The notes: generated by a model from the sequence alone, not told the origin. A DNA stretch of 9,222 nucleotides from Candidatus Mcinerneyibacteriota bacterium (GCA_030630935.1 DAOVMD010000090.1:1-9222); one strand, 5' to 3'. Numbered from the stretch's first letter, positions 961 through 9,222 are shown. Numbers and translations are program-made.

Positions 961-1230
961 TCAGTCCATTTGAATTTCATCTATTATTCCAACAATAACG
1001 GAATCAATCGGCATTTTCATATCACCAAGAGCATCTCGTGCTGAGGATCCCTGAACAGTAACAAGAACAATATCACCAACCCCGGCTTGAACAATATCAA
1101 TCGTCTCAAATGAATTTCCATAGGGCTCTCCATCTACTTCAATTGGTTGGACTACTAAAATCTTCTTGCCCTTAAATTTTGGTTCTTTCTTGGTCGCAAC
1201 AACGTTACCGATTACTTTACAAATTAACAT
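961..1230 (-). CDS. BMC-P pentameric shell protein (EutN/CcmL family), copy 4 in operon order
   Basis: This 89-residue single-domain protein belongs to the EutN/CcmL (Pfam BMC-P) family. Such proteins form pentamers that cap the vertices of the polyhedral shell. Hallmarks are the start MLICKVIGNVVATKKEPKFKG, a KILVVQP strand, the central AGVGD turn, the GSSAR segment near residues 61-65, and the closing VGIIDEIQMD. It matches the first BMC-P of the operon (5879-6145) best: about 41 of 88 positions by hand count, with GSSAR shared. It is thus closer to that distant copy than to its two immediate neighbours. It starts 2 nt after the stop of the preceding BMC-P. The ribosome site AAAGAGGAAAG lies inside the last codons of that upstream gene. 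ATG start. Confidence 0.93.
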   Translation of the reverse strand: MLICKVIGNVVATKKEPKFKGKKILVVQPIEVDGEPYGNSFETIDIVQAGVGDIVLVTVQGSSARDALGDMKMPIDSVIVGIIDEIQMD

Positions 1231-1232
1231 TT

Positions 1233-1523
1233 TTATTCTTTCCTCTTTTTTGCTTCTTTAACTATAAATATATCATCAACTATTGCATTAACTCCATAAT
1301 CAATTGGTGGATGCGGTTCAGGCAATCTTAAAACTGCTTCCTTGCCTTTTACCATTAAAATCGTTTCACCAAAACCTGCTCCCATCATATCAATTGCAAT
1401 CAAAGGTTTTCCAAAGGGCTGTTCGTTTTCATTTAAAGGTTGAACTATTAAGAGAGTTTTTCCCTTTAATTTCTCGTCCATTTTAGAAAGTACTACAGCA
1501 CCAAGTATTTTTCCTAATATCAT
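1233..1523 (-). CDS. BMC-P pentameric shell protein (EutN/CcmL family), copy 3 in operon order
   Basis: This 96-residue EutN/CcmL-family vertex protein begins MILGKILGAVVLSK. It continues with KTLLIVQPL, the GAGFGE turn, a PEPHPP proline cluster replacing the GSSAR segment of the other subgroup, and VDDIFIV. It aligns without gaps to the preceding BMC-P (1520-1870), with about 47 of 89 positions identical by hand count, so the two look like a tandem duplication that has diverged. Its start codon overlaps the stop of the upstream gene as ATGA (1520-1523). A good site, AAGGAGA, lies inside the upstream coding end. The short lysine-rich tail (EAKKRKE) is partly the ribosome site of the next gene read as codons, so it may have no structural meaning. 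Confidence 0.92.
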   Translation of the reverse strand: MILGKILGAVVLSKMDEKLKGKTLLIVQPLNENEQPFGKPLIAIDMMGAGFGETILMVKGKEAVLRLPEPHPPIDYGVNAIVDDIFIVKEAKKRKE

Positions 1524-1870
1524 ATCTTTCTCCTTCGATAATAGGAGTTTGAATCATCTTCTCTCTCTTTATCCTTATTATACTTAACTTTTTTTATCAT
1601 AATCTCTGTTATATTTATATCATCAATAATTCCTACAACCCCAAGGTCAGCAGGGGGAATCGGATCGGGAAATGACAACATCGATTCGTCTCCTTCGCAA
1701 ATTAATACCAGCTCACCATTCCCTGCACCAACCGTATCAACAGAAATTACAGGTGACCCAATTGCATTTTCATTCTCATCAAGAAGCTGAAGAATAAGCA
1801 GCTTCTTCCCTTCTAATTTCTTATCCTGTTTCGATAAAACAATACGGCCAATAACTTTTCCTAATAACAA
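1520..1870 (-). CDS. BMC-P pentameric shell protein with charged C-terminal tail, copy 2 in operon order
   Basis: This 116-residue EutN/CcmL-family protein is longer than the usual 85-100 residues. The core (about residues 1-88) shows MLLGKVIGRIVLSK, KKLLILQLL, the GAGNGE turn, the PDPIPP cluster and GIIDDINI. A further 28 residues or so form a polar, lysine- and arginine-rich tail without hydrophobic pattern. The start is TTG (1868-1870). It is chosen because it places the conserved Met-x-x-Gly-Lys-Val start exactly, and AAAGAGGT stands 4 nt upstream. The TTG lies 2 nt after the rpiB stop. A weak start would suit a protein needed in few copies. The tail ends in the AAGGAGA ribosome site of the next gene. 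The tail could extend into the lumen or bind cargo, or be neutral drift. Confidence 0.92.
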   Translation of the reverse strand: MLLGKVIGRIVLSKQDKKLEGKKLLILQLLDENENAIGSPVISVDTVGAGNGELVLICEGDESMLSFPDPIPPADLGVVGIIDDINITEIMIKKVKYNKDKEREDDSNSYYRRRKI

Positions 1871-1882
1871 GATTACCTCTTT
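1871..1882 (-). promoter_or_regulatory. Ribosome binding site supporting a TTG start
   Basis: AAAGAGGT (1875-1882) stands 4 nt before the TTG at 1868-1870 and overlaps the last codons and stop of the RpiB-family gene. No ATG fits: the first residues after the TTG already match the family start (LLGKVIG). This site decides the start and implies reinitiation or coupling with the upstream gene. Confidence 0.75.
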
Positions 1883-2493
1883 ATAATTCTAACTTTTTTT
1901 TCGTCTGCAAATTCCTTCGCAAGTGGAGTAATGATTGCATTCTTATCAATATAAACTACTCCTCCACCATTTCTGATTGCATATAAAACATCATCTTTTG
2001 TAAGTATCTTTTTAGGCTTTTCACTGAATTTTTCAATCTCAACTTTATTATTTGCATCTTCAAATTTTAAAATTTTATTTATCCTTCTCTCGTGGCGCCC
2101 ACCGCCAAAGGGAGTTCTTATAAAATTATTTACTATCTCCTTCGCCAATAGAAGCCCGACAATTCCGGAACCCATTACAAGAACGTTTGCATTATCATGC
2201 TCTCTTGCAGCTTTTGATGTAGTTACATTATTACAAGTTGCAGGTAAAATTCCTTTCACCTTACCTGCCGCCATTGCAGACCCTATACCTATCCCGTCAA
2301 TTAAAATTCCATAATCATAATTCCCCTTTGCAACTTCAATTGAAACCATAAATGCGATATCAGGATAATCAACTGCATCAGTTGAATAAGTTCCGAAATC
2401 ACTTACCTCAATATCTTCAAGCTTTGACAGGTAATCGAAGATTTTATTCTTGAGTTCAAAACCACCATGGTCTGCGCCGATTGCAATTCTCAT
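1873..2493 (-). CDS. rpiB: RpiB/LacAB-family sugar-phosphate isomerase homolog with C-terminal extension
   Basis: This is a 206-residue protein. Residues 1 to about 148 are an RpiB/LacAB domain, whose members interconvert ribose 5-phosphate and ribulose 5-phosphate or related sugar phosphates. Visible motifs are GADHGG (Asp8, His9), DYPD at 42-45, the anion-binding loop GIGIGSAMAAGK (67-78), REHDNANVLVMG with His99, and GGGRHERR with Arg133 and His134. The position of the usual catalytic Cys (ILICGTGIG in typical enzymes) is Asp66 here, and the following Thr is Ile68. Activity or substrate may therefore differ. Residues about 150-206 are an added segment with TKDDVLYAI and ITPLAKEFA, resembling short pieces of the BMC proteins EutQ and EutT as I remember them. 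RpiB homologs mark the sugar-phosphate class of BMCs. The gene starts 18 nt after the BMC-T stop, with AAAGG as ribosome site. The family is sure; the reaction is not. Confidence 0.88.
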   Translation of the reverse strand: MRIAIGADHGGFELKNKIFDYLSKLEDIEVSDFGTYSTDAVDYPDIAFMVSIEVAKGNYDYGILIDGIGIGSAMAAGKVKGILPATCNNVTTSKAAREHDNANVLVMGSGIVGLLLAKEIVNNFIRTPFGGGRHERRINKILKFEDANNKVEIEKFSEKPKKILTKDDVLYAIRNGGGVVYIDKNAIITPLAKEFADEKKVRIIKR

Positions 2494-2511
2494 ATTAATA
2501 ACCTTTCATTT

Positions 2512-3066
2512 TTAAAATAATTTTTCCCAAATCTGTTCATTTGGAAAAGGTACAATTACTGAATTTAAAAAAGCCCCGTTCGCCGCAATTATTTCACGTC
2601 CTGCAGAGATTGCTGCTTTAACATCAGCAATCTCACCTGTTAAGGTAAAGAAGGATTTTCCGCCAAGCCCTTTTGCAAGACGAATCTCTATTAGTTTCAC
2701 TGCAGCTTCTTTTGCAGAAGTATCTGCGGCAATTATACAAGAAGCTACTGTGAAAGATTCAATTGCTCCGATTGCATTAATCTTTGATACATCTACCTTT
2801 GTCGCTCCCATAATCGCCGGGATAATATCTTCATGAATATTTGGAATGATTAAACTATCCACATAAAAATCTGTTGACTCATCTTCTCCAACTTCAACAG
2901 CGCGTTTCACCGCACCAACATCACCGGCGATAAGTATCATATATTTCCCGGGACAAACTGGAAATGCATCAACTAAATTTACTGCTGAAACCTTACACAT
3001 CTGGTCAGCAACATAGATACCTTGAACGACGCTGTTTAATTCTAAAACGCCAATTGAAGGTTCCAT
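2512..3066 (-). CDS. pduT: BMC-T trimeric shell protein, PduT type with pore cysteine
   Basis: This 184-residue shell protein has two fused BMC domains (about 1-90 and 95-184) and forms trimers that look like hexamers in shell facets. The first domain has GVLELNSVVQGI and VCPGKYMILIAGDVGAV. The second has GAIESFTVASCI and GKSFFTLTGEIADVKAAI. Cys38 in VCPGKY is at the very position that binds the [4Fe-4S] cluster at the trimer pore in PduT. This supports the electron-transfer subtype rather than the gated double-stacked BMC-T type. The gene lies directly after pduS (15-nt gap), the partner expected to pass electrons to it. A good AGGAG ribosome site precedes the ATG. The cluster itself is inferred from position, not shown. 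Confidence 0.9.
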   Translation of the reverse strand: MEPSIGVLELNSVVQGIYVADQMCKVSAVNLVDAFPVCPGKYMILIAGDVGAVKRAVEVGEDESTDFYVDSLIIPNIHEDIIPAIMGATKVDVSKINAIGAIESFTVASCIIAADTSAKEAAVKLIEIRLAKGLGGKSFFTLTGEIADVKAAISAGREIIAANGAFLNSVIVPFPNEQIWEKLF

Positions 3067-3081
3067 TGGTTCTCCTAAATA

Positions 3082-4404
3082 TTATTTTTTTATCTTTATA
3101 AATTTATCTGTTACTTCTATTACATTACCGTTTATTGAAGAGTGAACATCCGCCCCCAGAAAATCATTTTCCATCTTCGCAATGACTTGACCCTGGGTTA
3201 CTTTATCATTAACTTTCACAACAGGTTTTGCCGGGGATCCAATATGCTGCTGAAGAAGAATCTGGATAATGCTTGAGGATAATTTCGTTTTAATCGAATC
3301 CGGAACAACTTTATATTTTCGTAGATTGGCTTTCATAATTAACCGGTTCCCTGGAATTTGTCTGAATTCCCGAATTGTATGAACCCGGTTTGGAGCAGAA
3401 TGATGCGGGTTCTTGATTCCAGCTTCCAATAACTTCTGTTTCAACTGCCTTGCAACTAATCTTGGTGAAAGATCCATGGGACAAGCATAGATTTCACATA
3501 ATCCGCATTCACAACATAAATAAGCCGTAGTATCCAATCTCTTAAAAATAGAAACGGATTTCATCAATACATCCGGACGCATATCATGCCCAATTAAATA
3601 CCTTGGGCAAACTTCAGTACAGGATTGGCACATACAACAATATGATTGAGCCTTCTTAATTATTAAAGATTCCCGCGCTTCCAATTGATGAATGATATAA
3701 TGGTTTTCAGGTAAAACAATTATTCCTGATGTGGTCTTGGTAATTGGTTGATTTATATCCTCTACAAGTTTTCCGGTCATAGGCCCGCCTTCAAGAATTT
3801 TAAACCTATCTTGAAGAGCCTTCCTGACTCCACCGGCATAATCAATCAGATATGAAATTGAAGTTCCAATTGCAACATCTGCAACAAATGGTTTTTCTAC
3901 TTCACCAAGAACAGTTACAAATCTGGAAATAACAGGTTCATTATTTTTTAATGCATTAAAAACATTAAAGAGTGTCCCGACATTCTGTACTACGACCCCA
4001 ACTTCTAATGGAAGACCGCCTTCAGGCACAATTCTATTTAAAACTTCCCAAACTAAAACCTGCTCATCACCAACAGGATAAGCATCAGGAAGAAGAAAAA
4101 TCTCAATATTACCGGGTAATTGCTTTTCCAAAAGTTGGATTAGATCTTCATACTTCTCTTTTATCGCAATAATTCCTTTCTTCGCACCAACAAGTTCAAT
4201 TGAAAGTTTCATACCTTCAATTAATTCAGAGCTCTTTTTCTTAATTAAGTCTTTATCGGAATATAGAAGAGGTTCGCATTCTGCAGCATTTGCAATTAAG
4301 GTATCAACAGATGCTTCCAATTTTTTATAGGTAGGAAATCCGGCTCCGCCGGCTCCAACTACACCGCTTGCTTTAATTTGATCTAATAATTTTTTCTTGT
4401 TCAT
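3082..4404 (-). CDS. pduS: PduS-type NADH-oxidising flavo-iron-sulfur protein (RnfC-like)
   Basis: This 440-residue protein has the PduS/RnfC architecture. A glycine-rich nucleotide and flavin motif (GVVGAGGAGFPTYKK, from residue 14) is followed by NAAECEPLL (residues 39-47). A central SLBB-like region and GGPMTG (206-211) come next. Two ferredoxin-type motifs follow: Cys256-x2-Cys259-x2-Cys262-x3-Cys266-Pro and Cys297-x2-Cys300-x2-Cys303-x4-Cys308-Pro. A lipoyl-like hybrid fold (VKVNDKVTQGQVIAKME) closes the protein. In 1,2-propanediol compartments PduS is a flavin and Fe-S protein linked to cobalamin reduction and NADH oxidation. Here no B12 enzyme is visible, so NAD+ regeneration for the neighbouring aldehyde dehydrogenase, with electrons passed to the BMC-T pore, is the more likely role (inference). 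It starts 4 nt after the aldehyde dehydrogenase stop with almost no separate ribosome site, suggesting coupling. Confidence 0.92.
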   Translation of the reverse strand: MNKKKLLDQIKASGVVGAGGAGFPTYKKLEASVDTLIANAAECEPLLYSDKDLIKKKSSELIEGMKLSIELVGAKKGIIAIKEKYEDLIQLLEKQLPGNIEIFLLPDAYPVGDEQVLVWEVLNRIVPEGGLPLEVGVVVQNVGTLFNVFNALKNNEPVISRFVTVLGEVEKPFVADVAIGTSISYLIDYAGGVRKALQDRFKILEGGPMTGKLVEDINQPITKTTSGIIVLPENHYIIHQLEARESLIIKKAQSYCCMCQSCTEVCPRYLIGHDMRPDVLMKSVSIFKRLDTTAYLCCECGLCEIYACPMDLSPRLVARQLKQKLLEAGIKNPHHSAPNRVHTIREFRQIPGNRLIMKANLRKYKVVPDSIKTKLSSSIIQILLQQHIGSPAKPVVKVNDKVTQGQVIAKMENDFLGADVHSSINGNVIEVTDKFIKIKK

Positions 4405-4408
4405 CTCT

Positions 4409-5854
4409 TTAAATTATTCTGAAATAATCAACCAGGGAACATCTTCTTTCCCTTGTAAAAGTTCTGGCTCTGGTAAGTCCATCCCCTGTTGGTGAAGCAA
4501 TTGTCAAGGTTGTATAACCTTCACCGTTAAAACCTAATCCTGCATAGGAAGGACCGTTTTTTACAAAAATAGAAGCATTACAGAGCCTTGCTACTTTAGA
4601 TAAATTTGCAATATCCTTTGAATGCATAATGAAGGTATGACCAAAATGATGCTCGGTTTCAATTGCATAACCAATTGATTGTTCCAATGTATCAACTTTC
4701 ACAATTGGAAGCATAGGCATTAGCTGCTCTGCCTGCACCAGAACATCATCCCAAGCAGCCTCAAATATTCCAAGAACCGTACCTTCAGGTGGATTAACCC
4801 CAATCTCGTTTAAAATCTTAACCGCATCTTTACCCACCCAATCCTTATTCACGATTGGATGCCGGAATCCCGTACCGTCATCTTTAGTAATAACGAGCTG
4901 CTTAAGTTTTGCAGTTTCAGATTCACTTAATAAATAAGCACCATGTTTCTGCATCTCTGATATTAAATTCCTGAAAATTGTTTTACAGGCAAAAACTTCC
5001 TTCTCCGCTGTACATAAAACACCATTATCAAATGATGCACCCGCAACTATATCTTTTGCCGCTTTCTTAATATCTGCCGTGTTATCTACTATAACCGGGG
5101 GATTACCGGGACCTGCAGCAATAACTTTCTTTCCGCAAGTCATCGCCATCTTAACAATCGCGGGACCACCGGTCACACAAACCAGCTTGACTTTATTATG
5201 AGACATAAGTTTCGTAACATCATCACGGGATGGATTCTTTAATGTTGTTACAATATCCGGGGGGCCACCATTCATCTCAATCGCATTCCTGATAAGTTCA
5301 ATCGCTTTCTGAGTAACACGCTTCGCTGAAGGGTGTGGGTTGAAAACAACAGAATTCCCGCCTGATAAAATACTGATACTGTTGTTTACAATTGTTGACG
5401 GGGGATTTGTTGAAGGAGTAATTGATGCAATCACACCAAAAGGTGCACGCTCAATCAAAGTTAAACCATGATCACCTGTGAATGTATATGGTTTGATGTC
5501 CTCCGGACCAGGGGTCTTTCGAGCTGCTAATAAAACCTTGTTCATCTTATCAGGCATCTTTCCCAAACCCGTCTCACTCACCGCTAATTCACCCAACATC
5601 TGTGCATTATCCTGAGCTGTCTGACGGATTGCATAAATTATTTTATTACGTTCTTCTAAAGGAAGTAAAATAAAGACTGCCTGAGCTGAAACAGCTGCGT
5701 TAACGGCATCATCAACCGTGTCATAAAAACCGGATGGAATCTTCTTGCGTATTGCCGTCTCCTTAATCTCGGCTTCAATTGAAATACCCTCTTTGGACAT
5801 TTCATCGATAACCTTCTTCATTAAATCATTAACTTTATCCTTGTTAAGTTCCAT
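4409..5854 (-). CDS. pduP: CoA-acylating aldehyde dehydrogenase (PduP/EutE type), core BMC enzyme
   Basis: This 481-residue enzyme oxidises an aldehyde to acyl-CoA with NAD+ inside the compartment. It has the PduP/EutE form of the aldehyde dehydrogenase fold: ERAPFGVIASITPSTNP (135-151), GGNSVVFNPHP (165-175), VTGGPAIVKMA (227-237) and AAGPGNPPVIVD (246-257). The catalytic Cys281 lies in FDNGVLCTAEKEVF. The first 20 residues or so (KDKVNDLMKKVIDEM) form an amphipathic helix separated from the catalytic domain by a short polar stretch, the usual form of an encapsulation peptide. Ribosome site AGGAG stands 9 nt before the ATG. The gene follows a BMC-P gene by 24 nt and precedes pduS by 4 nt. 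The chain length of the aldehyde cannot be read; acetaldehyde is a reasonable guess from the RpiB context. EutE is the alternative name; PduP and EutE are not separable by eye. Confidence 0.93.
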   Translation of the reverse strand: MELNKDKVNDLMKKVIDEMSKEGISIEAEIKETAIRKKIPSGFYDTVDDAVNAAVSAQAVFILLPLEERNKIIYAIRQTAQDNAQMLGELAVSETGLGKMPDKMNKVLLAARKTPGPEDIKPYTFTGDHGLTLIERAPFGVIASITPSTNPPSTIVNNSISILSGGNSVVFNPHPSAKRVTQKAIELIRNAIEMNGGPPDIVTTLKNPSRDDVTKLMSHNKVKLVCVTGGPAIVKMAMTCGKKVIAAGPGNPPVIVDNTADIKKAAKDIVAGASFDNGVLCTAEKEVFACKTIFRNLISEMQKHGAYLLSESETAKLKQLVITKDDGTGFRHPIVNKDWVGKDAVKILNEIGVNPPEGTVLGIFEAAWDDVLVQAEQLMPMLPIVKVDTLEQSIGYAIETEHHFGHTFIMHSKDIANLSKVARLCNASIFVKNGPSYAGLGFNGEGYTTLTIASPTGDGLTRARTFTRERRCSLVDYFRII

Positions 5855-5878
5855 AGGATCAATCTCCTATTTTTTTAT

Positions 5879-6145
5879 TCAATCTAATTTTATCGAGTCA
5901 ATTATTCCAATAATCGCTGCATCTACAGGTGTCTTTGAAAAGTTACCTGCCATCCGCGCTGAAGAACCGGTAACAATTAATACCGTCTCTCCATAACCGG
6001 AACCAACTGTGTCAATCGCAATTACATGTTTCCCGTCAGGCTTTCCATCAATGGATAAGGGTTGAATTATTAAAAGCTTCGTACCAACTAATTTCTCTTC
6101 CTTCTGAGTTGCAATGATCCTGCCTACGATTTTTGCTATATACAT
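5879..6145 (-). CDS. BMC-P pentameric shell protein (EutN/CcmL family), copy 1 in operon order
   Basis: This 88-residue EutN/CcmL-family vertex protein has the start MYIAKIVGRIIATQKEEK, a KLLIIQPL strand, the GSGYGE turn, GSSAR (60-64) and the end IIGIIDSIKLD. It pairs with the last BMC-P of the operon (961-1230) rather than with the two PDP/PEP-type copies. It is the first gene after the terminator-like hairpin at 6219-6242 and sits behind a 105-nt gap, the largest inside the operon. Its ribosome site is weak (GGGA, 8 nt before the ATG), in clear contrast with the strong site of the BMC-H gene. Low output would suit a protein needed only at the twelve vertices, if this copy supplies them. 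Confidence 0.93.
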   Translation of the reverse strand: MYIAKIVGRIIATQKEEKLVGTKLLIIQPLSIDGKPDGKHVIAIDTVGSGYGETVLIVTGSSARMAGNFSKTPVDAAIIGIIDSIKLD

Positions 6146-6218
6146 AATAAATTCCCGGACTTATTACAATTGTTATTAATTTTTATTAATATCTATATGA
6201 ATAAATATGAAAAACAAA
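6146..6218 (-). promoter_or_regulatory. AT-rich gap after the mid-operon hairpin, possible weak internal promoter
   Basis: This very AT-rich segment lies between the hairpin behind the BMC-H gene and the next BMC-P start. Several TATTAAT/TAATAA-like hexamers could act as -10 elements, but I find no convincing -35 at proper spacing. Transcription of the downstream eight genes may depend on readthrough of the hairpin, on a weak promoter here, or on both. The short palindrome ACAATTGT lies in it. Confidence 0.2.
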
Positions 6219-6242
6219 AGGGCGGAGTATGAGCCCCGCCCT
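6211..6242 (-). terminator. Terminator-like hairpin directly behind the BMC-H gene
   Basis: Read on the minus strand, AGGGCGG (6242-6236) pairs with CCGCCCT (6225-6219). One further G-C pair is possible past a bulged or mismatched base, and the loop is about 6 nt. It is followed by TTTTGTTTTT. The stem begins 8 nt after the BMC-H stop. The GC stem plus T-run fits a rho-independent terminator; the G inside the T-run and the genes behind it suggest partial termination or an RNA-stabilising 3' end. Confidence 0.75.
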
Positions 6243-6250
6243 AAATTAAA

Positions 6251-6541
6251 CTACTTTCCTTTACCTAATTTCATCGGGAAAATATCATCAAGTAATTCAT
6301 GAGGTCTTGGAATTACATGTACTGCAACCAGTTCCCCAATCTTTTGAGCAGCTGCTGCTCCAGCATCCGTAGCAGCTTTACATGCAGCTACATCACCTCG
6401 GACTAATACTGTTACATAGCCGCCGCCAATCTTTTCATAACCAACTATGATAACTTTGGCTGCCTTGATCATTGCATCTGCAGCTTCAATTAATGGAACT
6501 AAACCTTTCGTCTCAATCAAACCTAAAGCTTCATTTGACAT
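6251..6541 (-). CDS. pduA: BMC-H hexameric shell protein (PduA/EutM type)
   Basis: This 96-residue single BMC-domain protein is the main facet hexamer and the only BMC-H gene in the window. It reads like PduA, EutM or Ccm[19 protein letters not shown], then Lys26 at the hexamer-hexamer edge, the pore loop KIGGG (37-41), [19 protein letters not shown], and Arg79 in VIPRPH, the conserved edge arginine. The pore loop carries no cysteine, so it is probably a small polar pore for metabolites. A near-perfect ribosome site precedes it and a terminator-like hairpin follows it, both consistent with higher output than the downstream shell genes. The gap to the upstream pduL is 28 nt. The symbol is by similarity; EutM would serve equally. 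Confidence 0.96.
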
Positions 6542-6556
6542 GGAAAAACCTCCTTT
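6542..6556 (-). promoter_or_regulatory. Strong ribosome binding site of the BMC-H gene
   Basis: AAAGGAGGT (6548-6556, minus strand) stands 6 nt before the ATG, the best match to the anti-Shine-Dalgarno sequence within the operon. Other genes here have GGAG, GAGG or weaker sites. It fits the need for BMC-H as the most abundant shell subunit. Confidence 0.8.
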
Positions 6557-6569
6557 ACTTTAATATGAT

Positions 6570-7229
6570 TTAAATTAATAATTCTACCAATTCACCATTT
6601 TTTAAATTCGCAGCATTACCCTCATCTGTATCAAAATGAAGAGCTAACTTATGAGCAGAACCACACCGAACTAGTACTTCTTCAAAAATTAATGGACGCT
6701 CACCGGATACTCGAATCCTTACTAAATCATTTGCCTTGAGCCCCCAAGAGGATGCAAGCTCACTCTCAATATGAAGATGACGCTTTGAAATTATTACTCC
6801 ACAAGATAAACTAACAAATCCACAGGGTCCTATAATTAAAATACCAGGAGTCCCTTCTATATCACCGGAAATCCTAATTACAGGCTTTATACCAATATAA
6901 AATGCATCAGTCTTGGAAATCTCAACCTGGGTATGTGAACGACAAGGACCTAATATCCTGACTTTTTCAAGTACTCGCTTGGAACCAATTAATCGAACTG
7001 TCTCTTCTGATGCAAATTGGTTGGGTTGGGATAAATCCTTTAACTTCTTTAACTGGTAACCTGAACCAAATAATATATCTAAATCTCCGCGGGATATGTG
7101 AATATGTCTACCGGAAATCTCGGCAGGAACTAATTTCTTGCCGGAACCTGAGGAAGTGTTACCGGATTGGTTTTCAATAAATACTTTCTTAACTACTTCT
7201 TTTATTAGATCTTCTGAATCAGATCTCAT
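6570..7229 (-). CDS. pduL: PduL-type phosphate acyltransferase with N-terminal encapsulation helix
   Basis: This 219-residue enzyme converts acyl-CoA and phosphate to acyl-phosphate, releasing CoA for reuse by the aldehyde dehydrogenase. The tandem PduL domains carry the metal-binding histidines: His42 and His44 in SGRHIHIS, His151 and His153 in SKRHLHIE, and His198 in HFDTDEGNAA. Also seen are VRILGPCRSHTQVEIS (90-105) with the conserved Arg97, and GPCGFV. Residues about 4-20 form an amphipathic helix (DLIKEVVKKVF), then a Gly/Ser-rich linker to about residue 31: the standard layout of an encapsulation peptide ahead of a luminal enzyme. It is the first gene after the strong promoter. GGAG stands 4 nt before the ATG. 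The family call is firm; acetyl versus propionyl specificity is unknown. Confidence 0.95.
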   Translation of the reverse strand: MRSDSEDLIKEVVKKVFIENQSGNTSSGSGKKLVPAEISGRHIHISRGDLDILFGSGYQLKKLKDLSQPNQFASEETVRLIGSKRVLEKVRILGPCRSHTQVEISKTDAFYIGIKPVIRISGDIEGTPGILIIGPCGFVSLSCGVIISKRHLHIESELASSWGLKANDLVRIRVSGERPLIFEEVLVRCGSAHKLALHFDTDEGNAANLKNGELVELLI

Positions 7230-7341: not shown

Positions 7342-7371
7342 ATTATAGCAAATTCTAACCTAAAAAGTCAA
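7342..7371 (-). promoter_or_regulatory. Strong sigma70-type promoter of the BMC operon
   Basis: On the minus strand TTGACT (7371-7366) is followed after 18 nt by TATAAT (7347-7342). TGC sits directly before the -10, forming an extended -10 element. This is a near-consensus housekeeping promoter between the terminator of the upstream gene and pduL. Transcription would begin near 7335. Confidence 0.85.
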
Positions 7372-7443: not shown

Positions 7444-7474
7444 AAAAAAAAGCCCCGGGAAATGACCCGGGGCT
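7444..7474 (-). terminator. Rho-independent terminator of the outer-membrane protein gene
   Basis: On the minus strand AGCCCCGGG (7474-7466), a 6-nt loop and CCCGGGGCT (7459-7451) make a perfect 9-bp stem followed by a run of T residues (7450-7444). It lies 20 nt after the stop codon of the upstream gene and separates that gene from the BMC operon. Confidence 0.95.
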
Positions 7475-7494: not shown

Positions 7495-8955
7495 TTAATA
7501 TGTAAGATTCATTATAACTTTGCTGCCGCCTGTTCTGGAATTTACAAAGATTTGACCCTCGCTGTATCCCATTCTGGAAGCGATATATTTCTTTAATGTA
7601 GCCCCGCGCTTTTCAGATAATGATTTATTTGATGAATAGACATCAAGTACTATCTGCTTTGGTGGGTTCTTTCTAATTATGCTAGAGAGTTTAGAAAGTT
7701 TCAAATATGAAACGGTTTCAAATGTATCAGTATTAGCTTTGAATCTCACACCATCCATTGTTATTTTAAGACCTGTATCTGTTAACTGTGTGTTCGGGAA
7801 AATGGGTAAGACTTGTTTCATAACCGTTTCAAGACCTCCAACTTCAATACCTTTTGATGCAAGGATTGCTTTTTGTTTTGCGAGTTCCGCAAGTTTCTTT
7901 GCCTTGAGCGCTTCAGCTAAAGCTTTAGCTCTTTCAGCCTCAAGCCTTGCAGCGTCATCGGGAGTTGGTGTTGGGACTGGAACTGGGGTAGGAGTTGGAA
8001 TTGGGGTTGGGGTTGGGATTTTACCCATGTGTTTTATGGTATAGTCATTTGTAGTACCTATTGCAAATTCAATTTTAGGAGTAAATTTCTTTCCGTCATA
8101 TTTTTCAGTATCATAGTTTCTCATTGCTTCTTCGATATCTGTAATACCAATTTGAATTTTTAATCCTGGTAAGAATCTAGCCATAGGCGATTGTGACATC
8201 TTACCAAAGACTCCCGGATTATTTAAAATGAATGAAATTCCGACTGAATAGGCGTTCCCATCATAGTCGAACATAACCTCGAAAGGATTTTTTGTTTGAC
8301 CAATCAGGAATAGGGTTGATGCACCGAAGAAGATTCCGGGAGAGGCATCCTTACCATGACCCTGGAAAGAATTTGCACCCCAACCGTAATGTCCTTTTAA
8401 CGCAAAGTTTTGACCAATATTAAATTTTTTCGTAAGTGTCAGGTAAAAAGAATTATTCTGAGCATATTCCGCATAGGGTCCAGCAGGAGTAATATACTTT
8501 AATCCCTCACCGACAATATTCTTTGCACCAATTGCAATTGATGGCATCCATGCCATTTGTGGATTATTTGCAGCTGGCGAGTTCAATAGTTTATCAGTAG
8601 GATCCCTGAATAGCTGTAATTTAAAGTTAACGACTCCATCTTTCCTGTCTGGATCGCTTAAAAGTGTATATTGTGTAATTCCTAATTCCAAGTTAAGGGT
8701 TAACATTGAATTAGTTGGAATGTGAATACCAAAATTAAACCTGGCATCCTGTTCATTCCTCATTCTAGGGTCGAGATAATCTTCCTCACTGGCAAATGCC
8801 ATAGAGTTACATACGGCGATATCATAGCCCAGGTGCTCAAGAACATCTGCAGTTGGTATGTTGATTAATCCTGTATTGCCGTTAAATGCTGCTGAATAAG
8901 CAGCTACGGAAAATATAACAATGAACATTAAAGCAGTCAAGGTTTTAGACTTCAT
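7495..8955 (-). CDS. Exported YjbH-like outer-membrane protein with Pro-Thr linker, coiled coil and OmpA-like C-terminus
   Basis: This is a 486-residue exported protein. Residues 1-22 are a signal peptide (Lys-rich start, hydrophobic core, AYSA cleavage region). The mature start, FNGNTGLINIPTADVLEHLGYDIAV, resembles YjbH-type beta-barrel proteins. To about residue 300, alternating strands and aromatic ends suggest an outer-membrane barrel. A Pro-Thr linker (314-332) leads to an Ala/Lys/Glu-rich coiled coil (333-367). The C-terminus (396-486) resembles an OmpA domain: a VRFKANTDTFE strand, KLSSIIRKNPPKQIVLDVY and SEKRGATLKKYI. The peptidoglycan-contacting Asp of OmpA is not recognisable, while the later Arg (Arg450) is kept. 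The gene has its own promoter, a strong AAGGAGG site 6 nt before the ATG, and a terminator, so it is independent of the BMC operon. The exact family is uncertain. Confidence 0.7.
   Translation of the reverse strand: MKSKTLTALMFIVIFSVAAYSAAFNGNTGLINIPTADVLEHLGYDIAVCNSMAFASEEDYLDPRMRNEQDARFNFGIHIPTNSMLTLNLELGITQYTLLSDPDRKDGVVNFKLQLFRDPTDKLLNSPAANNPQMAWMPSIAIGAKNIVGEGLKYITPAGPYAEYAQNNSFYLTLTKKFNIGQNFALKGHYGWGANSFQGHGKDASPGIFFGASTLFLIGQTKNPFEVMFDYDGNAYSVGISFILNNPGVFGKMSQSPMARFLPGLKIQIGITDIEEAMRNYDTEKYDGKKFTPKIEFAIGTTNDYTIKHMGKIPTPTPIPTPTPVPVPTPTPDDAARLEAERAKALAEALKAKKLAELAKQKAILASKGIEVGGLETVMKQVLPIFPNTQLTDTGLKITMDGVRFKANTDTFETVSYLKLSKLSSIIRKNPPKQIVLDVYSSNKSLSEKRGATLKKYIASRMGYSEGQIFVNSRTGGSKVIMNLTY
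7960..8018. repeat. Low-complexity repeat encoding the Pro-Thr linker, G-rich on the plus strand
   Basis: A short tandem repeat of Pro-Thr/Pro-Val codons lies inside the outer-membrane protein gene. On the plus strand it shows several GGG and GGGG runs with short spacers, for example GGGGTTGGGGTTGGG near 8003-8017. It can change length by slippage in 6-nt steps without breaking the frame, and the G-runs could fold as a quadruplex on the template strand. Confidence 0.6.
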
Positions 8956-9094: not shown

Positions 9095-9222
9095 ATAGTT
9101 GAGATGGTTGAATAGTTCAAGTGTTAAAAAAATGTTGAAATGTTGAACAAGTTAAGATAGTTCAATCGTTCAAGTGTTAAAAATAAGTTCAAATGTTAAA
9201 CAAGTTGAGATAGTTCAATCGT
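9095..9222. repeat. Degenerate tandem repeat, period about 53 nt, running off the window edge
   Basis: The 29-nt block at 9141-9169 recurs at 9194-9222 with 27 of 29 positions identical, a spacing of 53 nt. A weaker copy precedes it (from about 9095). The unit is itself built of GTTCAA, GTTAAA and GTTGAA words every 8-9 nt. No reading frame is kept. It is non-coding and truncated by the end of the window, so the copy number is unknown. Confidence 0.7.

Follow-up and report, generated by a model that had tools for sequence, protein, structure and literature searches.

A probable deoxyribose-5-phosphate microcompartment of SPU-like type in Candidatus Mcinerneyibacteriota, with its aldolase encoded apart from the shell genes

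The function of a bacterial microcompartment (BMC) is usually inferred from the genes found beside those for its shell. In the sugar phosphate utilizing (SPU) class, two enzyme families serve this purpose: the BMC catalogue lists pfam01791 (DeoC-type) and pfam02502 (RpiB-type) as common to all SPU subtypes (PMC8217296). An alcohol dehydrogenase is missing from SPU loci, and PduS has been suggested to make the alcohol (Axen et al., PMC4207490); electron export by PduS and PduT has already been proposed (PMC2982820, PMC6325248). Here we describe a contig of 9222 bp from a Candidatus Mcinerneyibacteriota bacterium (C432, the whole of which is called the window) that carries a minus-strand BMC operon with RpiB and no aldolase. 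A DeoC with a tag-like N-terminus is encoded on another contig of the same genome, C196, and we consider it likely, judging from sequence, that the two loci together specify an SPU-like microcompartment for deoxyribose-5-phosphate catabolism with dispersed genes, in which the tagged DeoC would be the source of aldehyde and electrons would be exported through PduS and a PduT-like BMC-T.

The source is a metagenome-assembled genome (MAG) of 3.16 Mb in 471 contigs, 80% complete (G000), which we compared with one genome of the same family (G001) and five class-level relatives belonging to another family (G002-G006); these make up the seven genomes referred to throughout. Along the minus strand, profile searches confirmed the order PduL, BMC-H, BMC-P1, acylating aldehyde dehydrogenase (AldDH), PduS, BMC-T, RpiB, BMC-P2, BMC-P3, BMC-P4, then ymdB. 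All ten BMC genes named in a first-pass annotation of the window are thereby confirmed with Pfam, and the window contains no gene for an aldolase, lyase, diol or other dehydratase, or alcohol dehydrogenase, as had been remarked. Two components of an SPU locus are in place, namely the RpiB-type pfam02502 protein and the combination of shell genes, PduL and AldDH; the DeoC-type pfam01791 protein is absent both from the window and from the four relatives' loci that have both flanks assembled. Since DeoC is encoded outside it, the locus falls outside SPU by the published definition, which takes RpiB and DeoC together (PMC8217296). RpiB had been read as a sufficient mark of SPU, which by that catalogue it is not, so the earlier class assignment survives as a likeness to SPU and not as strict membership.

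The first-pass annotation had placed the aldehyde source elsewhere in the genome, and a search for a tagged deoxyribose-phosphate aldolase had been set beforehand as the test. Two PF01791 proteins were found genome-wide in G000, one on C196 and one on C259. The C196 protein reaches 295 bits against TIGR00126, the deoC equivalog (cut-off 117), and has both catalytic lysine motifs, KTSTGF and VKASGG, intact; it begins with a stretch resembling an encapsulation peptide (EP), MNLDDMIKKITTDIKNDSS, followed by a middle domain of ~200 residues and the DeoC domain. N-termini were scored with a position model trained on 29 in-locus BMC DeoC tags. That of the C196 DeoC, MNLDDMIKKITTDIK, scores 10.6, a value reached by 1% of 1031 background open reading frames (ORFs) from BMC neighbourhoods; the ten background ORFs that reach it come from BMC loci and themselves look like tagged cargo. 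The C196 DeoC probably carries a compartment-entry tag of the EP type, and the expectation of a remote aldolase is borne out. SPU DeoCs from Myxococcota and Deltaproteobacteria have a middle domain homologous to that of the C196 DeoC (8.7e-21). The domain is flavoprotein-like and has relatives among stand-alone BMC proteins with tags, of which two match PF02441. For the long DeoC of locus L077, the PDB matches listed for the predicted fold span the aldolase part only. The composition of C196 is close to that of the window (GC 0.356 vs 0.366; tetranucleotide r 0.944). Two other aldolases were rejected as cargo: the second PF01791 protein on C259 (353 aa), with an N-terminal tag score of -21.9 and no BMC context, and a class II aldolase on C139, untagged by the same model.

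The split between locus and aldolase is no accident of assembly, since the aldolase-free locus and the arrangement rny-deoC-eno are both conserved in the five class relatives. Each has a locus of the order PduL-H-P-AldDH-PduS-T-RpiB-P without an aldolase (both flanks assembled in four), and in each, rny and eno flank a deoC that has the extra domain (L059-L063; enolase, like MiaA and HflX below, was assigned from sequence motifs rather than profiles). Among the 75 DeoCs examined, no others have RNase Y beside deoC. RNase Y and enolase are linked to RNA decay in Bacillus, and rny and ymdB are often neighbours. The BMC-P4 orthologue of the five class relatives is an unlinked satellite, upstream of ymdB and of MiaA-like and HflX-like genes (L155-L160), and in G001 BMC-P4 precedes ymdB, with the MiaA-like gene following after an ORF of 109 aa. 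BMC-P4-ymdB leads in all six to a MiaA-like gene and not to a signature enzyme, which makes a signature enzyme just past the left edge of the window unlikely. A join of C196 to that edge was considered and rejected: there is no common end sequence, and synteny puts miaA after ymdB.

A wider sample of 80 named loci, retrieved through AldDH, contained 26 with RpiB. deoC is present in 21 of these; of the other five, three come from this clade and two are truncated at a contig end, and one of the truncated pair (L092) breaks off in the opening part of a DeoC-type N-terminal domain. Outside this clade, every RpiB locus not interrupted by a contig end has deoC (21/21). The BMC class was examined on the AldDH tree, where SPU enzymes are expected on the SPU/EUT1 branch (PMC8217296). 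The tree joins the clade to the AldDH of genome G035 at 99%, with deeper branches poorly separated; G035 has another split SPU-like set, with AldDH and BMC-H on one contig (L034) and a second BMC locus of PduL, BMC-P, RpiB, BMC-P and DeoC on another (L065). No AldDH relative was found on viral contigs, and a plasmid search with RpiB returned ordinary RpiB only, at <60% identity.

In the proposed pathway the window operon would supply shell, AldDH, PduL, PduS and RpiB, and C196 the DeoC. Deoxyribose-5-phosphate from DNA turnover would enter the shell, where DeoC would cleave it to acetaldehyde and glyceraldehyde-3-phosphate; AldDH would convert acetaldehyde to acetyl-CoA, yielding NADH, and PduL would form acetyl-phosphate and recycle CoA, while RpiB would isomerise a sugar phosphate. 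NADH would be re-oxidised by PduS rather than by an alcohol dehydrogenase, the electrons leaving via an Fe-S cluster in the pore of the PduT-like BMC-T. This exit is suggested by the domain set of PduS, by an invariant CPGK motif and by the published PduS/PduT work. The pore cysteine motif of PduT-type BMC-T proteins is C-P/S/A-G-K/R/S-Y/F (PMC6325248), to which the window protein conforms with C38-P-G-K-Y; CPGK is invariant in six genomes, followed by Y or H. An Fe-alcohol dehydrogenase on C120, also found in 5/6 relatives, was dismissed as a hidden core enzyme; none of the four read by eye has a tag-like N-terminus, so the enzyme is probably cytosolic, and entry by piggy-backing is possible.

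Several observations weigh against an encapsulated pathway of this kind. C196 and the window contig are separate contigs with no physical join, and deoC was not found in G001, a 72% complete genome. The sister-family DeoCs keep the extra domain and have no tag recognisable by the model, so that encapsulation in that family is unsupported, and the window AldDH scores at background on the same model, which is DeoC-trained. A DeoC tree, itself of poor resolution, fails to group the enzyme of the window genome with those of the sister family; on account of the resolution, DeoC phylogeny was dropped as proof of BMC ancestry. B12-dependent diol dehydratase (PduCDE) is absent from the window, to which the check for PF02286 was confined. 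The untagged sister-family DeoCs, weakly grouped with untagged housekeeping DeoCs, and the residence of deoC with rny and eno in one housekeeping operon would suit a cytosolic housekeeping aldolase, the compartment only taking up and detoxifying the acetaldehyde released and the split recording the loss of an encapsulated first step. We consider this unlikely, as the N-terminus of the window-genome DeoC is tag-like and the enzyme includes a BMC-type domain known from tagged cargo, and as the locus retains RpiB, which would be useless for pure aldehyde detoxification.

The incompleteness of the MAG, the limited check for diol dehydratase and the presence of PduS with a PduT-like BMC-T, typical of propanediol utilization (PDU) compartments, bear on a different explanation, that the true signature enzyme, perhaps an unknown lyase or a B12-dependent diol dehydratase, is encoded in the one-fifth of the genome missing from the assembly and DeoC is incidental. 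Its chances appear slim: neither EutB (PF06751) nor glycyl-radical enzymes of the pyruvate formate-lyase (PFL)-like kind (PF02901) occur in the seven genomes, among them relatives 91-96% complete that share the locus, and RpiB accompanies DeoC in all other uncut loci. Very improbable, in our view, is that the compartment handles aldehydes made by other organisms, or that the locus is decaying and has no working first enzyme. The operon does lack a signature enzyme, and in G001 an in-frame stop precedes the tail of RpiB; yet the locus genes are intact, with 38-79% identity across two families, and the tag-bearing DeoC in the genome leaves no need for the external aldehyde that had been offered as an alternative. 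An SPU-like compartment acting on deoxyribose-5-phosphate is the reading we favour.

The RpiB tail (residues ~158-206) is, among the 26 RpiB loci, confined to this clade. It matches positions 137-206 of TIGR02536 (window 1879-2085; 1.2e-8), and the DeoC middle domain matches positions 50-134 of the same family (C196:1407-1658; 2.5e-5), both far under the family cut-off. TIGR02536 is a BMC accessory protein family with relatives that other loci encode as separate genes; the seven genomes have no stand-alone member at cut-off, and a G005 match, weak (E 0.03) and with three stops, was not counted. The predicted fold of the tailed protein is that of RpiB with a small tail domain, for which no match of its own is listed. 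In G001 the tail is in frame but split from RpiB by one TAA stop (L028 ~4120-4270), either a mutation or a sequencing error. We raise, as a doubtful but conceivable scenario, that a stand-alone protein of the TIGR02536 kind split in two, the flavoprotein-like portion giving rise to the leading part of DeoC and the C-terminal portion to the RpiB tail, and that the two still dock. If true, docking would bring DeoC to RpiB and the shell with no tag required, as the sister family needs, and control of the aldolase would have passed to the RNase Y-enolase operon, linking the compartment to nucleic-acid turnover.

The gaps between genes from pduL to ymdB measure 28, 105, 24, 4, 15, 18, 2, -4, 2 and 5 nt, so that the whole run, including ymdB, looks like a single operon (Table 1); ymdB itself is a housekeeping neighbour outside the BMC core. 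The largest gap directly follows BMC-H, the others lying between -4 and 28 nt, and the hairpin found in it possibly lowers expression of the downstream genes relative to the hexamer. Promoter-like sites as a whole occur at chance frequency (33 found vs 32 expected), and the right operon end is credible because the promoter-like site there comes after a strong terminator-like hairpin. On the left, 160 bp remain past ymdB to the contig edge, without a terminator-like site; the earlier statement that both ends are visible or nearly so is upheld for the right end and not for the left. The region upstream of the operon encodes, at window 7495-8955, a protein of 486 aa with a proline/threonine-rich linker, probably exported and without a Pfam match. 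A 53-bp tandem repeat of 2.4 copies (window 9097-9222) extends to the edge of the contig and is a possible cause of the break in assembly.

Table 1. Features of the window, and the DeoC gene on contig C196
Feature	Position	Strand	Evidence or remark
PduL phosphotransacylase, EP-like N-terminus	6570..7229	-	PF06130 3.3e-70; tag score 7.8
BMC-H shell hexamer, EutM-like	6251..6541	-	PF00936 1.1e-28; NF012018 over cut-off
BMC-P1 shell vertex protein (EutN_CcmL)	5879..6145	-	PF03319 9.8e-31
AldDH, acylating, helical N-terminal extension	4409..5854	-	PF00171; NF011927 610 bits, over cut-off
PduS, FMN/Fe-S NADH oxidoreductase	3082..4404	-	PF01512 Complex1_51K, PF10531 SLBB, PF13534 Fer4_17, PF13375 RnfC_N
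BMC-T, PduT-like, pore cysteine motif CPGKY	2512..3066	-	two PF00936 domains; PDB PduT matches
RpiB sugar-phosphate isomerase with extra C-terminal tail	1873..2493	-	PF02502 (LacAB_rpiB) 5.9e-49
BMC-P2	1520..1870	-	PF03319 3.8e-23
BMC-P3	1233..1523	-	PF03319 6.7e-22
BMC-P4	961..1230	-	PF03319 1.3e-27
ymdB-type metallophosphoesterase, final gene before contig end	161..955	-	PF13277 1.4e-104
Promoter-like site upstream of pduL	7342..7371	-	11/12 consensus matches
Terminator-like hairpin ending upstream gene	7451..7474	-	9 pairs, 8 G-C, then T run
Terminator-like hairpin inside operon, BMC-H/BMC-P1 interval	6219..6242	-	9 pairs, 7 G-C
DeoC aldolase, 474 aa	C196:519-1943		TIGR00126; directly downstream of RNase Y

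Here the probable signature enzyme of a whole candidate class sits in a housekeeping operon, with the result that classifiers working from the locus would label such compartments as incomplete or of unknown function. This suggests a genome-wide check for tagged enzymes at other "incomplete core" loci, and the clade offers a natural test of cargo recruitment once the tag has been lost. An unproven lead for the phylum of the clade is Ca. Effluviviacota, a seep phylum with PduP-bearing BMCs (PMC11323493).

Compared with described classes, PDU and ethanolamine utilization (EUT) compartments share PduL, AldDH, PduS, the PduT-like BMC-T and the EutM-like BMC-H; EutB of the latter is absent from all seven genomes, and the dehydratase gene of the former is absent from the locus, the extent of the PF02286 search. 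Glycyl-radical enzyme compartments (GRM) share the PduS/PduT pair with AldDH and PduL, and differ in the PFL-like enzyme, absent here from all seven genomes. The likeness to SPU is closer, comprising RpiB, acylating AldDH, PduL, BMC-H/T/P, a DeoC in the genome and the absence of alcohol dehydrogenase from the locus (PMC4207490; PMC8217296), with PduS shared with SPU of Atribacteria, and a DeoC with tag and extra domain shared with the loci of Myxococcota and Deltaproteobacteria. Unlike in SPU, DeoC here lies beside RNase Y outside the locus, RpiB has an added tail and one of the BMC-P genes goes with a ymdB-miaA housekeeping cluster. The Haliangium type (HO; PMC8217296) shares a BMC-P triplet (here BMC-P2 to P4, 961-1870, one of them unlinked in class relatives), some BMC-P in satellite loci, and a DeoC elsewhere in the genome, with an EP-like extension in some members; it differs in that RpiB is inside the locus here and that the sole BMC-T found in this 80% complete genome is PduT-like, not of the double-pore type. 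A tagged DeoC at a remote site has its precedent in HO compartments (PMC8217296), which is here extended to a split conserved across two families. That the system works like an SPU deoxyribose-5-phosphate metabolosome is well supported, and we read it as a known DNA-sugar-degrading compartment with its genes rearranged, not as a new kind.

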